Shown piece by piece: positions 33,855-39,922 of a stretch of DNA of 64,000 bases. The DNA comes from an uncultured Hyphomicrobiales bacterium (GTDB lineage: Bacteria; Pseudomonadota; Alphaproteobacteria; Rhizobiales; Beijerinckiaceae): assembly GCA_903825465.1 (NCBI GenBank), contig CAIKAR010000008.1:1-64000 (forward strand). Reading direction: 5' to 3'. The notes under the pieces are model-generated. The model searched no databases. It was not told the DNA's origin and worked only from the letters and a program-made list of their open reading frames with translations. Position 1 is the first letter of the stretch; every line of letters starts with the position of its first letter. The translations under genes were made by a program, and so were the position numbers.

Positions 33855-33989
33855 CTCGTCCCTCCAACTTGATCCTGGGATAAACCCCGGCGCGACGCGA
33901 GGAAAGCCCCCAATCGCGGCCATTGCGTGGTTTGCCCGTCCCCGCCCGCCATGCTAGGCGACGAGCGATCCGCGAAACGGGAAACGGCC

Positions 33990-35153
33990 ATGAAGCGAAG
34001 CGACAAGCGCATTCTCACGACCCATGTCGGCAGCCTGATCAGGCCGCCGGATTTGCGCGAGTTCATCAAGGCGCGCCAGAGCGGCAAGGACTACGACAAA
34101 GCGGCCTACGCCGCCTGTCTGAAGTCGAGCGTCGCGGCGGTGGTGAGGCGCCAGCGCGAAGCCGGCATCGACATTCCCAGCGACGGCGAATTCGGCAAGG
34201 CGATCAGTTGGTCGCAATACGCGTTGACGCGGCTGAGCGGCTTCGAGCGCCGGCCCATCGTTGGACAGAACCTGTTCACCACCGGCGCGGACCGCGCGCG
34301 CTTCGCCGAATTCTACGCCGAAATGGACGCGCAGGATCCGCCCAACACCAACATGGAATCCGTCTGCGTCGGGCCGATCAAATACACCGGCCACGCCGAG
34401 CTCCAGATGGACATCGACAACTTCAAGGCCGCGTTGAAGGACAACCCCGTCGAAGAGGCTTTCCTGCCGGTCGCCGCCGTGTCGAGCGTCATCCCCGACC
34501 GCCGCGACCTCCACTACAAGAGCCGCGAGGCCTCGGACATAGCCATCGCCGAGGCCATGCGCGACGAATACAGGCAGATCGTCGACGCCGGCCTGCTGGT
34601 GCAACTCGACGACGCCCGCGCCGCGGTGACGTGGGACCGCATGTCGCCTAACTCCAGCTTCGCCGATTATTTGAAATGGCTGACGCGGCAGGTCGAGATC
34701 ATCAACCATTCGCTGGAAGGCGTGCCCGAGGACCGCGTGCGCTACCATGTGTGCTGGGGCTCGTGGCCCGGTCCACACACAACGGACGTCGCGTTCAAGG
34801 ACATCGCCGCGCTGGTGCTGAAGATCAAAGCGGGGGCGTTCGTCATTGAAGGCGCGAATCCGCGCCACGAGCACGAATGGAGCGTGTGGAAGGACGTGAA
34901 GCTGCCGGCGGGCAAGGTGTTGATCCCCGGCGTCGTCAGCCACGCCACCAACATCGTCGAGCACCCGGAATTGGTCGCCGAGCGCATCGCGCGCTACGCG
35001 GGCCTTGTCGGGCGCGAGAATGTGATCGCGGGAACCGACTGCGGCTTCGCGCAGGGACCGCTGCTGCGCCGCGTGCATCCCTCCATCGTGTGGGCGAAGT
35101 TCGAGGCGCTGGCCGAGGGCGCCCGGATCGCCAGCAAGCGGCTTTGGGCGTAG
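33990..35153 (+). CDS. Cobalamin-independent methionine synthase II family protein (MetE C-terminal domain-type)
   Basis: MKRSDKRILTTHVGSLIRPPDLREF...DGEFGK...zinc ligands VRYHVCWGSW, VIEGANPRHEHEW, AGTDCGFAQ. Confidence 0.9.
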   Translation: MKRSDKRILTTHVGSLIRPPDLREFIKARQSGKDYDKAAYAACLKSSVAAVVRRQREAGIDIPSDGEFGKAISWSQYALTRLSGFERRPIVGQNLFTTGADRARFAEFYAEMDAQDPPNTNMESVCVGPIKYTGHAELQMDIDNFKAALKDNPVEEAFLPVAAVSSVIPDRRDLHYKSREASDIAIAEAMRDEYRQIVDAGLLVQLDDARAAVTWDRMSPNSSFADYLKWLTRQVEIINHSLEGVPEDRVRYHVCWGSWPGPHTTDVAFKDIAALVLKIKAGAFVIEGANPRHEHEWSVWKDVKLPAGKVLIPGVVSHATNIVEHPELVAERIARYAGLVGRENVIAGTDCGFAQGPLLRRVHPSIVWAKFEALAEGARIASKRLWA

Positions 35154-35200: not shown

Positions 35201-35560
35201 CTACCGCGCCAGCAACGGTATCTTCTTGGGGTCCGTGGGCCCCGGCAGCGTCTGCAGGAACGCGTGGATGTCGGCGACATCGGCGTCCGACACCTGGCTC
35301 GCGACATAGGGCGGCATGTCGTTCCTGCCCTCGCGCAGGAAGGCGGCGAGCGACTCGGGCGGCAGTTGCAGTTGCGCCAGAGGTGGCGCTGGATAGTTCA
35401 TCCGCCCGCCCTGTCCAGACCGGCCATGGCACTCGAAGCAACCCACCGCGAGGAAGGTGGCTTTTCCCTTGACCGGATCTCCATCGGCGCGCGCCGGAGC
35501 GCCGGAAAACGCCGCGGCGATAAGCGCGGCGGCCAGCATCGATGTTTTGATATGCGACAT
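35201..35560 (-). CDS. Secreted monohaem c-type cytochrome
   Basis: Signal peptide ...ALIAAAFSGAPARA; haem motif CFECH; distal ligand region GRNDMPPYVASQVSDADVADIHAFLQTLP. Confidence 0.92.
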   Translation of the reverse strand: MSHIKTSMLAAALIAAAFSGAPARADGDPVKGKATFLAVGCFECHGRSGQGGRMNYPAPPLAQLQLPPESLAAFLREGRNDMPPYVASQVSDADVADIHAFLQTLPGPTDPKKIPLLAR

Positions 35561-35574
35561 GTTCGGCTAGCTCC

Positions 35575-37512
35575 TCAGCGCGGATCGGTGACGACATCGA
35601 TGAGCGCGGGCTCGCCGTTGCGGACCACGGCGAGGGCGCGCTTGAGCGCCGGCCCAAGTTCCTTCGGATCGCTGATCGGCCCTTCGCCGTAAACGCCGAA
35701 GCTGCGGGCCAGATTGGCGTAGTCGATGTTCGGATCGGTGATGGTGGTGCCGATGCGCGTGTTGCGCGCGCCGCGCTGATGGCGGCCGGCCATGGCCTGG
35801 AGATACATGAACTCCTGATGCCACGCCCGGTTGTTGTTCATCACATAAAGCAATGGAATCTTGTGGTGAGCCGCCGTCCACAGCGTGCCGGGGCACATCA
35901 TGAAATCGCCGTCGCCCTGGAACGACACCGTCAACCGGCCGTGCTTCTTGTTGGCCAGCGCCGCGCCAAGCGAGGCGGGCGCGTTGTAGCCAACGCCGCC
36001 GCCGCCGGAGCCGCCGTTCCAGTTGTGGGGCTTCTTCATGTCCCACAAAAGGCGCGGCCAGGCGAGGCCGACGCTTGTGCCGACAAGCGACCAGTCGTCG
36101 TCCTTGATCTGCGCGTAGACCTCGGCGCACATGCGCGCGGAGGTGATCGGGCTCGCGTCCCAGCCGATCGTCGCGTTCGACAGCGCGGCGTCGATCATCG
36201 AGGCGTGCGCCGCGGCGAGTTTCTTGCCGCGTTCGGCCAGCGCCGACTTGCGGCCGTCGTCGATGAGCTTCTTCACCTGCTCGGTCAGATACGGCAGGCT
36301 CGCCTCGCCGTCGCCGGATATCGCCAGATCGACCGGTTGATAGCGTCCGAAATCCTGATCGTTGGCCTTGATCAGCATTTCGCGGTTGCCAATGGTCGCG
36401 AGCTTCGCCGTCGGCTTGTAGATGGGCCGGTTGGAGCGCACGATGCGGTCGCTGTGGGCGTTGATCAGACCCCACAGGTCTGTCGCTTCGATGCCGACGA
36501 TCACATCGGCCTGCGCGATCGCGGCGCGGGCGCGCCCGGAGTGGTTGAGCGGATGCTGGCTCGGAAAGTTCATCCGGCCGCCGACGTCGATAATGGCGCA
36601 TTGCAGCGCCTCGGCGAGCTCCACGAGCAGGGGCATGGCGGCGGGCGTGCGCGCCAGGCGATCGACGACAACGACCGGGTTCTCCGCGTTCGTCAGCATC
36701 TTGGCGACCTCGCGCAAAGCCCCCATTTCGCCCATCGCCGGCAGCGGCAGGGAGAGCTTCGGAATTTTCAGCTTCTCGCGGTCTTCGATCGGGTTTTCCT
36801 GCAACTCCGCGTCGACGGAGATAAACACCGGCGCCATCGGCGGCGTCTGCGCGATGCGCACCGCGCGCACCGTGGATTCCGCGAAGTGCTGGAGGTTGGC
36901 GGGCTGGTCGTCCCACTTGGTGAAGTCGCGGATCAACGCGCCGGGATCGACCGCCGAATGATTCCATTCGGCGCCGGGCAGGCGCTTGTCCTCTTCCAAG
37001 ATGTTGCCGACCATGGCGAGCATCGGCACGCGGTCGCACCAGGCGTTGTAGATCGCCATCGCCGCGTGCTGCAGGCCGACGGTGGCGTGGCAGATCATCG
37101 CCTGCGGCTTGCCGTCGATCTTGTAATAGCCGTGGGCCATCGCCGCGGCGATTTCCTCGTGCACGCAGACGATGATTTCCGGCTTGTTGCCGCCATGGTT
37201 GAGGACGGCTTCGTGCAGGCCGCGGAAGCTCGAGGCGCACATCATGAAGAGATAGTCGATGCCGGCGGATTGCAGCACGTCGGTCATGAAGTCGCCGCCC
37301 GACGAGGTTTGCGTGGCGGGATCGGCGTTCGGCCGCTCGGTGTCGGCGGCGAGTTGAAGCGGGCCGGGATAGGCGGCGCTGGCTTTCTTCGGCGCCTCGA
37401 CGGGAACGGCCTTCGCCTCGCCCGCGGTTATCGCGGCGGCGCCCGACAACGCCGCGCCCTTCAAAAACCCGCGCCGCCCGACGGCGGCCGTGTCGCTGCG
37501 CTTGCTCGCCAT
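35575..37512 (-). CDS. Thiamine diphosphate-dependent enzyme (acetolactate synthase-like) with twin-arginine signal
   Basis: Tat motif VGRRGFLKGAALSGAAAITAGEAKA; cofactor Glu VCVHEEIAAAMAHGY; GDG-N motif GDGDFMMCPGTLWTAAHHKIPLLYVMNNN. Confidence 0.9.
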   Translation of the reverse strand: MASKRSDTAAVGRRGFLKGAALSGAAAITAGEAKAVPVEAPKKASAAYPGPLQLAADTERPNADPATQTSSGGDFMTDVLQSAGIDYLFMMCASSFRGLHEAVLNHGGNKPEIIVCVHEEIAAAMAHGYYKIDGKPQAMICHATVGLQHAAMAIYNAWCDRVPMLAMVGNILEEDKRLPGAEWNHSAVDPGALIRDFTKWDDQPANLQHFAESTVRAVRIAQTPPMAPVFISVDAELQENPIEDREKLKIPKLSLPLPAMGEMGALREVAKMLTNAENPVVVVDRLARTPAAMPLLVELAEALQCAIIDVGGRMNFPSQHPLNHSGRARAAIAQADVIVGIEATDLWGLINAHSDRIVRSNRPIYKPTAKLATIGNREMLIKANDQDFGRYQPVDLAISGDGEASLPYLTEQVKKLIDDGRKSALAERGKKLAAAHASMIDAALSNATIGWDASPITSARMCAEVYAQIKDDDWSLVGTSVGLAWPRLLWDMKKPHNWNGGSGGGGVGYNAPASLGAALANKKHGRLTVSFQGDGDFMMCPGTLWTAAHHKIPLLYVMNNNRAWHQEFMYLQAMAGRHQRGARNTRIGTTITDPNIDYANLARSFGVYGEGPISDPKELGPALKRALAVVRNGEPALIDVVTDPR

Positions 37513-37670
37513 GGCTTCCTCCCGTGTTCCGGAACCGTTTTTCACGGCGTTTTCCGCGCGGCGGAAGTCGCGGCGCGTCCGGCGTTGAGAGGATGCTAGC
37601 GCAACCCATAGGAAAGGCAATGGCGCCCGGCCAGCGTTGTCCGGAAATTCAAATCGGTTAAAACAGCCGC

Positions 37671-38681
37671 ATGAAAAAACCGTTTGGCGTGTTCGCGGTC
37701 GCCGCAAACCTGGGGTTCTTCGGCCTTCAGGCGCGCGCGCAGACGCCCGCCGATTTCCTCGACATCCGCTATGGCGAAACCGCGTCGCCGCTGCAAAGCG
37801 TCTTCGCGCTGCCGATCCTGGTCGCGGAGCGCGAAAAATTCTTCGCGCGGCGCGGCCTGCATTTCTCCATCGTGCCGGTGCAGGGCGGCGGCGAAGCCAC
37901 GGTCGATGTGTTGGCGGAAGGACGCGCCGACATATCCCACGTCGCGACGAATTTCCTGATCTCCACGGCGCTGAAGGGGTCCGACGCCGTCGCCGTCGCG
38001 GCCGAGTTCAACAATCCGATTTAGTCCCTCGTGGCGAAACCCTGGATCAAAAGCTTCGACGACCTCAAGGGCAAGCGGGTCGGCATGGCCGACATGACGG
38101 GCACGGTGTCGCTCGCGACGCTCGCCTTGATGGCGAAACACGGACTCGCGCGAGGCGATGTGACGATCAAGGTCGTGGAAGGCACGCCGTCGCGCTTCGC
38201 CTGCCTGATTAGGGAGGACTGCGACGCCGCGCCGCTGGGCCAGCCGCAGGATTTTTTCGCCACGCGGCAGGGCTTCAACATTCTGGGCCTGTCGAGCGAA
38301 GCGACGCCCAATTTTCTTTACACCGTCACCATCGCGCGGCGCTCGTGGGCGGAAAGGAACAGCGAGGCCGTCGTCCGCTACGCGCGCGCGCTCGGCGACG
38401 CCTTTCATTTCATCCGCGATCCCGCCAACCGCGACTCCGTCGCGGGGACGATTCGGGACGCCTGGGGCTCGTCGGATTCATCGGCCCGCGAAACCTTGTC
38501 GCTGTATTTCGAGCCCGAGAAAAACGTGCTGCCCATGGCGGGCGAAATCAGCGTCAAGGGCATGGCGCAAGTGATCGACTTCATGGACAAAGCGGGCGCG
38601 TTCAAAGGCGCGAAGCCGGCCCCGGAGGCGTTCATGGACACGCGGTATTTGCGCGCCGCCGGCGTGCCCGACCAACCTTAG
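37671..38681 (+). pseudogene. ABC transporter substrate-binding protein (NMT1-like) interrupted by in-frame TAG at 38022-38024
   Basis: Two same-frame ORFs: MKKPFGVF...AVAAEFNNPI* then SLVAKPWIKSFDDLKGKRVGMADMTG...; together a full-length SBP. Confidence 0.85.
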
Positions 38682-38800: not shown

Positions 38801-39922
38801 ATGAGCGTTCGCACCAAGCCGCCGTTCCGCGCCGACCATGTCGGAAGCCTCATCCGCCCCGACAATCTGATCGCCGCGCGCGAGGACGCCGCCAACGGCA
38901 AGATCGCGAAGGACGAGCTGTTGACCATTCAGCGCGCCGCGATCCGCGACGTCGTGAAAACGCAGGAGGACATCGGCCTTCGAGTCGTCACCGACGGCGA
39001 ATACAACCGCAAGTCCTGGCAGAGCGACTTTTTGCTCAAGATCAAGAACGTCGCCGTCACGCCGCCGAAACTGACGGTGAAATTCCACTCGGCCGTCGGC
39101 ACGCGCGAGCACACGCCCCCGTCGATGGCCGTTGTCGGCAAGGTCTCGCGGCAGGAGCCGATCTTCGTCGACGACTTCAAGTTTCTGAAGACCGTCGCGA
39201 AGGCGACGCCGAAGGTCACCCTGCCCTCGCCCACGATCCTGCATTTCCGCGGCGGCCGCGAGGCCATCGACGCTAAGGCCTATCCCGACATGGCGGAGTT
39301 CTACCACGACCTCTCCGGCGTCTATCGCGCCGAGCTCGGCGAGCTCGCCGCCAACGGCCTGCGCTACGTGCAGATCGACGAGGTGAATTTCGCCTATCTT
39401 TGCGACCCGGCGCTGCGCAGCGACGTGAAAAACCTCGGGGAAGATCCGGAGTCGCTGCCCAAGACCTACGCGAAGCTGCTCAACGACTCCGTCGCCGGCC
39501 TTCCCGCCGACATGACGGTGTGCATGCATCTTTGCCGCGGCAATTTCGCGGGCTCATGGGTCGCCGAGGGCGGCTACGAACCCGTCGCGGAACTGTTGTT
39601 CAACGAGATCAACGTGACGGGTTATTTCCTCGAATACGACAGCGCGCGGGCCGGCGGCTTCGAGCCGCTGCGGTTCCTGCCGAAAGGCAAGACGGCCGTG
39701 CTCGGGCTGCTGACAACGAAAAGCTCCAACATGGAAACGAAGGACGCGATCAAGCGCCGCGTCGAGGAGGCGACGAAGTTCGCCCCGCTCGACCGTCTCG
39801 CGCTGAGCCCGCAATGCGGCTTTTCCAGCGGCATCGGCGGCGAGACGATGACGGTCGAACGCGAGATGGAAAAGCTGGCCCTGGTCGTCGAGACCGCGAA
39901 AGAAATTTGGGGCGACGCCTGA
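38801..39922 (+). CDS. Cobalamin-independent methionine synthase II family protein (second paralogue; epoxyalkane:CoM transferase-like possible)
   Basis: MSVRTKPPFRADHVGSLIRPDNLIAAREDAANGKI...VTDGEYNRKSW...zinc ligands MHLCRGN, FLEYDSARAG, SPQCGFSSG. Confidence 0.9.
   Translation: MSVRTKPPFRADHVGSLIRPDNLIAAREDAANGKIAKDELLTIQRAAIRDVVKTQEDIGLRVVTDGEYNRKSWQSDFLLKIKNVAVTPPKLTVKFHSAVGTREHTPPSMAVVGKVSRQEPIFVDDFKFLKTVAKATPKVTLPSPTILHFRGGREAIDAKAYPDMAEFYHDLSGVYRAELGELAANGLRYVQIDEVNFAYLCDPALRSDVKNLGEDPESLPKTYAKLLNDSVAGLPADMTVCMHLCRGNFAGSWVAEGGYEPVAELLFNEINVTGYFLEYDSARAGGFEPLRFLPKGKTAVLGLLTTKSSNMETKDAIKRRVEEATKFAPLDRLALSPQCGFSSGIGGETMTVEREMEKLALVVETAKEIWGDA

Follow-up and report, generated by a model that had tools for sequence, protein, structure and literature searches.

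Why would an enzyme dependent on vitamin B1 (thiamine diphosphate, ThDP) carry a twin-arginine (Tat) export signal and be encoded directly upstream of a secreted cytochrome c? To our knowledge, ThDP enzymes are generally regarded as cytoplasmic. The locus lies in the window analyzed here—a stretch of 64,000 nucleotides from an uncultured Hyphomicrobiales bacterium. The initial annotation of this window had predicted an exported enzyme with its own electron acceptor; its sequence facts hold up and its interpretation is borne out in part.

The coding sequence of the ThDP enzyme (positions 35575–37512, minus strand) specifies 645 residues with the domains TPP_enzyme_N, TPP_enzyme_M, and TPP_enzyme_C (Pfam PF02776, PF00205, and PF02775). 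Its ATG start is preceded by the ribosome-binding site GGGAGGAA (37516–37523, minus strand). The N terminus is a predicted Tat signal peptide comprising residues 1–35 (37408–37512, minus strand), with the arginine pair at residues 13 and 14; residues 11–35 read VGRRGFLKGAALSGAAAITAGEAKA, and A-K-A precedes a possible signal cleavage at 35/36. R13 and R14 are each kept in 101 of 104 aligned relatives. An RRxFLK-type motif together with a hydrophobic stretch occurs in 101 of the 102 family members with readable N termini (out of 105 family genes), the sole exception being L061, a gene with an apparently broken reading frame. Genes for TatC and for the cytochrome c maturation protein CcmE are found in the window's genome. 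By motif, hydrophobic stretch, and available machinery, the enzyme is hence predicted to be a Tat substrate.

The closest relative of the enzyme, an ortholog at locus L014 (80–82% identical), has the ATG and the GGGAGGAA ribosome-binding site at its start as well. Differences between the two genes at the first, second, and third codon position number 16/13/28 in codons 1–62 and 86/54/201 in the core of the gene. Since those in codons 1–62 fall mostly on third positions and the start signals are conserved, we conclude that the leader region is translated. In the AlphaFold model (mean pLDDT 88, pTM 0.86), the confident ThDP fold begins near residue 63, and residues 1–62 are unstructured. A downstream start that would remove the Tat signal is ruled out by the N termini of the homologs, the comparison with L014, and this fold boundary; the twin-arginine leader read in the initial annotation thus stands, and it is conserved.

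The cofactor site is intact, as had been noted at the outset. The H118-E119-E120 segment (37153–37161, minus strand) contains the catalytic glutamate E119, which aligns with E47 of benzoylformate decarboxylase (BFD), and the ThDP/Mg motif spans G533-D534-G535 to N560-N561 (35830–35916, minus strand). E119, D534, G535, N560, and N561 are each present in 104 of 104 sequences. Together with the three TPP_enzyme domains and the fold, they place the protein in the ThDP-dependent decarboxylase/acetolactate synthase superfamily. H142 (102/104) and S94 (99/104) match H70 and S26 of BFD in the alignment, for which the BFD reference was checked against PDB 1BFD. Counterparts of BFD H281 and F464 are not conserved among the 104 aligned family sequences; H320 as an equivalent of H281 was ruled out by the same alignment. 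The PoxB FAD-loop motifs (GSGCAG, GMTGLIG, and GTQFPY) are replaced in all family members shown in the alignment with PoxB, whose sequence was likewise checked.

Within this superfamily, the enzyme reaches the curated cut-off of none of the matched NCBIfam families. Its best match is PRK08327 (NF006203) with 254 bits (range 224–261) against a cut-off of 456. Acetolactate synthase (TIGR00118) scores 130 bits versus 538, benzoylformate decarboxylase 146 versus 493, and pyruvate oxidase (PRK08611) 98 versus 742. When the family profile is compared with the PDB, all 46 matches at E ≤ 1e-40 are benzoylformate decarboxylases; fold comparison returns the whole superfamily, flavin-free and flavin-bearing members alike. 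The label acetolactate-synthase-like given initially therefore fits only loosely, because among solved enzymes the BFDs come nearest by profile and the pyruvate oxidase FAD-loop motifs are absent. About 20 residues, such as S94, Q148, Y509, H565, E567, and M569, differ systematically between the Tat clade and its Tat-less paralogs. Because of these residues and the missed cut-offs, the exported clade is, judged by sequence, a distinct subfamily, nameless in the libraries searched. Its members are currently annotated just as "thiamine pyrophosphate-binding protein".

The partner is a monoheme class I cytochrome c of 119 residues (35201–35560, minus strand; PF13442, E 7e-13) with a signal peptide and predicted Sec export. 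Its heme-attachment motif CFECH occupies residues 41–45 (35426–35440, minus strand), with C41, C44, and H45 present in 88 of 88 partner cytochromes. Met82 within an MPP motif (35315–35317, minus strand) is the likely sixth heme ligand and is found in 87 of the 88; CxxCH and distal Met are the marks of a class I cytochrome c. The spacer between the ThDP stop and the cytochrome start on the same strand is 14 bp (35561–35574), as initially described, compared with a family median of 10 bp. Some partner cytochromes are diheme proteins whose two class I domains share a single chain, namely those at L047, L067, L081, and L082 (Acidobacteriota) and at L154 (9827–10447).

On the other side of the ThDP gene, and divergent from it, lies an NMT1-like solute-binding protein gene (37671–38681, plus strand) with an in-frame TAG at 38022–38024; the interruption reflects either a pseudogene or a sequencing error. 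Two MetE-like genes (33927–35153 and 38801–39922, both plus strand), which encode only the Meth_synt_2 catalytic domain in 373–408 residues, bracket the ThDP-cytochrome pair together with this broken gene.

The pair is not particular to the window. A contig scan yielded at least 537 relatives, of which the best 80 were kept as loci; with further family genes from same-genus genomes, the family set comprises 105 genes from Hyphomicrobiales including Bradyrhizobium, other Pseudomonadota, Acidobacteriota, and a few others. A signal-bearing CxxCH open reading frame lies within 400 bp downstream of 88 of the 105, in 85 cases within 60 bp; the adjacency is thus conserved. For two further genes, the cytochrome lies on the opposite strand; in another two cases, the CxxCH motif sits within a longer reading frame or beyond a second ThDP gene. 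Approximately 13 of the 105 have no adjoining c-type cytochrome in the DNA examined. In a Bryobacterales subset (Acidobacteriota; L071, 5946–7406, and similar loci), a secreted alpha/beta hydrolase (Abhydrolase_10, PF20091) takes its place 10 bp on. Hence, not all lineages require the cytochrome.

Chance adjacency is ruled out by comparison with background genes at the same loci: a CxxCH reading frame with a signal starts at most 60 bp past the stop in 84 of 104 family genes versus 5 of 393 background genes, two of the five being family genes themselves. The corresponding Fisher p of about 1e-68 is indicative only, because related rows are not independent; likewise, locus counts are not counts of independent events. 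The pairing of a predicted Tat-exported ThDP enzyme with a cytochrome is common to hundreds of related genes in soil bacteria, with the cytochrome nearly always next. At E ≤ 1e-200, the family is found in at least 1 of 399 evenly drawn genomes of the phylum, a lower bound since three candidates were scored per genome. No natural ThDP-cytochrome fusion occurs among the loci examined, and no description of an exported ThDP/cytochrome pair was found in the open-access literature.

The window's genome itself contains three more such pairs, two of them back to back; the enzymes are 48–50% identical, and each is immediately followed by its cytochrome. At locus L009 (5406–11748), two tandem pairs are followed by a carboxypeptidase-regulatory and virginiamycin-B-lyase-like protein with a CxxCH motif; upstream of the pairs, a Rieske/VanA oxygenase and a VOC protein are encoded.

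Export signal and cytochrome are absent together in more distant homologs. Forty-three Tat-less homologs, approximately 33–39% identical, served as controls of similar base composition, because each was taken from the genome of the window or from another of its genus: none of the 43 has a Tat signal and none a downstream cytochrome. PRK08327 and such same-genus paralogs share H118, E119, H142, H149, H185, and H320 with the window enzyme; the paralogs differ from it in lacking both the signal and the cytochrome. The Tat group (83 rows) forms a single cluster in the tree, supported at 93 (SH-aLRT, quick method), and cytochrome presence requires about nine changes. Records that had not been used to find the pattern agree with it. 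Homologs from Caballeronia zhejiangensis (49%) and Novosphingobium plasmids (44%) have both Tat signal and cytochrome, whereas a Sinorhizobium homolog with 37% identity has neither; RefSeq annotates the Caballeronia pair, WP_244808613.1 and WP_244808614.1, as "thiamine pyrophosphate-binding protein" and then "c-type cytochrome". Downstream of a Tat-less ThDP homolog in the same genome as the window (L012, 1915–4068, minus strand) lies the gene for a large CarboxypepD_reg protein, which contains a CVGCH motif and may be another heme partner.

Is the cytochrome dedicated to the enzyme? It is the only widely recurrent neighbor of the family ThDP genes, forming one homology cluster at 68 loci; a solute-binding-protein cluster comes next with 12. 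No larger conserved operon that would name a substrate emerges across these loci. Enzyme and cytochrome distances are correlated (Mantel r 0.78, with 0 of 999 permutations as high), a value that shared ancestry alone could give. Species history does not, however, explain why most cytochromes track with their own enzymes among paralogs. When the window's genome is compared with genome G011, the closest enzyme and the closest cytochrome fall in the same G011 pair for three of four enzymes (that of the window, L009_7343, and L009_9694), the fourth having no clear ortholog there. The initially proposed Tat export with a dedicated cytochrome is thus strongly supported, at the level of sequence, by conservation across phyla, the Tat-less controls, and co-variation; the oxidative decarboxylation or aldehyde oxidation suggested with it would go a step further.

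We consider it probable that the genes for enzyme and cytochrome form one module, which carries out ThDP chemistry in the periplasm and links it to respiration, with the cytochrome c as electron acceptor. The Tat clade combines conserved targeting, an intact ThDP site, and a co-varying cytochrome with the lack of recognizable pyruvate oxidase FAD motifs; beyond these features, we infer an oxidative reaction, direct acceptance of the electrons by the cytochrome, and conversion of a 2-oxoacid or an aldehyde to an acid. The enzyme would fold in the cytoplasm, bind its ThDP and Mg there, and then be exported, for which the Tat route is fitting because ThDP loading must come before export. In the periplasm, an enamine (Breslow) intermediate would be formed from a 2-oxoacid after decarboxylation or from an aldehyde, and the co-encoded heme c would oxidize it in one-electron steps—heme c being the simplest acceptor, since the periplasm lacks CoA, NAD+, and lipoamide, which normally take this role. 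Hydrolysis of the acyl-ThDP would then release the carboxylic acid (plus CO2 in the case of a 2-oxoacid), and the cytochrome would hand the electrons to a terminal oxidase. Aromatic-degradation genes near several pairs give a weak hint of the substrate: a Rieske/VanA oxygenase and a VOC-family protein are encoded near the pair at C82, and a ring-hydroxylating dioxygenase near the Caballeronia pair.

Parts of this arrangement are familiar. In periplasmic systems such as PQQ methanol dehydrogenase and its cytochrome cL, an exported dehydrogenase comes with a co-encoded, dedicated cytochrome c; the pair described here follows the same logic, with ThDP as cofactor instead of PQQ, molybdenum, or flavin. 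PoxB (PDB 3EY9), the pyruvate:ubiquinone oxidoreductase, is a ThDP enzyme passing electrons into the respiratory chain and, hence, a functional analog. It differs in working on the cytoplasmic side with FAD and quinone. The closest solved family by profile, the flavin-free benzoylformate decarboxylase (MdlC, PDB 1BFD; PRK07092), shares the three-domain ThDP fold, the ThDP motif, and the residues E47/H70/S26 (E119/H142/S94), but is cytosolic, non-oxidative, and without a cytochrome; the window enzyme is about 120 residues longer and has the Tat leader.

That BFDs catalyze non-oxidative reactions counts against an oxidative reading, and the family genes without an adjoining cytochrome weigh against the module as well. 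The exported enzyme might instead be a non-oxidative decarboxylase or lyase, converting a 2-oxoacid to an aldehyde or cleaving an acyloin, with the cytochrome serving a separate periplasmic dehydrogenase that oxidizes the product. The active-site matches to BFD and the absent FAD motifs suit this explanation, as do Mo-hydroxylase genes close to the pair at C19. A dehydrogenase is never a recurrent neighbor, however, co-variation ties the cytochrome to the ThDP enzyme itself, and the H281 and F464 positions of BFD are not conserved; we therefore regard it as unlikely, albeit the most serious competitor.

More improbable still is a hidden flavin or other carrier between ThDP and heme, which would make the enzyme a periplasmic pyruvate oxidase analog with the cytochrome in place of quinone. 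Superfamily and overall fold are those of FAD enzymes such as glyoxylate carboligase and AHAS, both of which carry FAD, and the middle domain PF00205 is present; against this stand the replaced PoxB loop motifs and the profile matches, which at E ≤ 1e-40 are exclusively flavin-free. The missing motifs point, by sequence, to direct transfer rather than a flavin. Lastly, the Tat-like leader might be retained or unused, leaving the enzyme cytoplasmic or membrane-associated and the cytochrome merely co-expressed. Motif and hydrophobic stretch are kept across phyla while same-genus Tat-less homologs have no leader at all, the partner cytochromes have signal peptides of their own, and the N terminus ahead of the fold is unstructured, so that we give this explanation very little weight. 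In its most specific form, the preferred reading of periplasmic oxidation is offered tentatively: the pairs of Pseudomonadota and Acidobacteriota may represent a class of periplasmic 2-oxoacid (or aldehyde):cytochrome c oxidoreductases, in which heme c oxidizes the enamine directly, without a flavin, lipoamide, NAD, or iron-sulfur relay.

Redox ThDP enzymes rely on lipoamide, flavin, or iron-sulfur relays. The pair suggests an unstudied route of oxidizing carbon compounds outside the cytoplasm and, as a module of two genes, is simple to express and test. It would, if the reading is correct, offer a naturally exported ThDP biocatalyst. ThDP chemistry would have been moved to the periplasm, where the oxidation of carbon compounds would feed respiration directly—an unrecognized entry of electrons into the respiratory chain in bacteria that abound in soil, the relatives of Bradyrhizobium and the Acidobacteriota.
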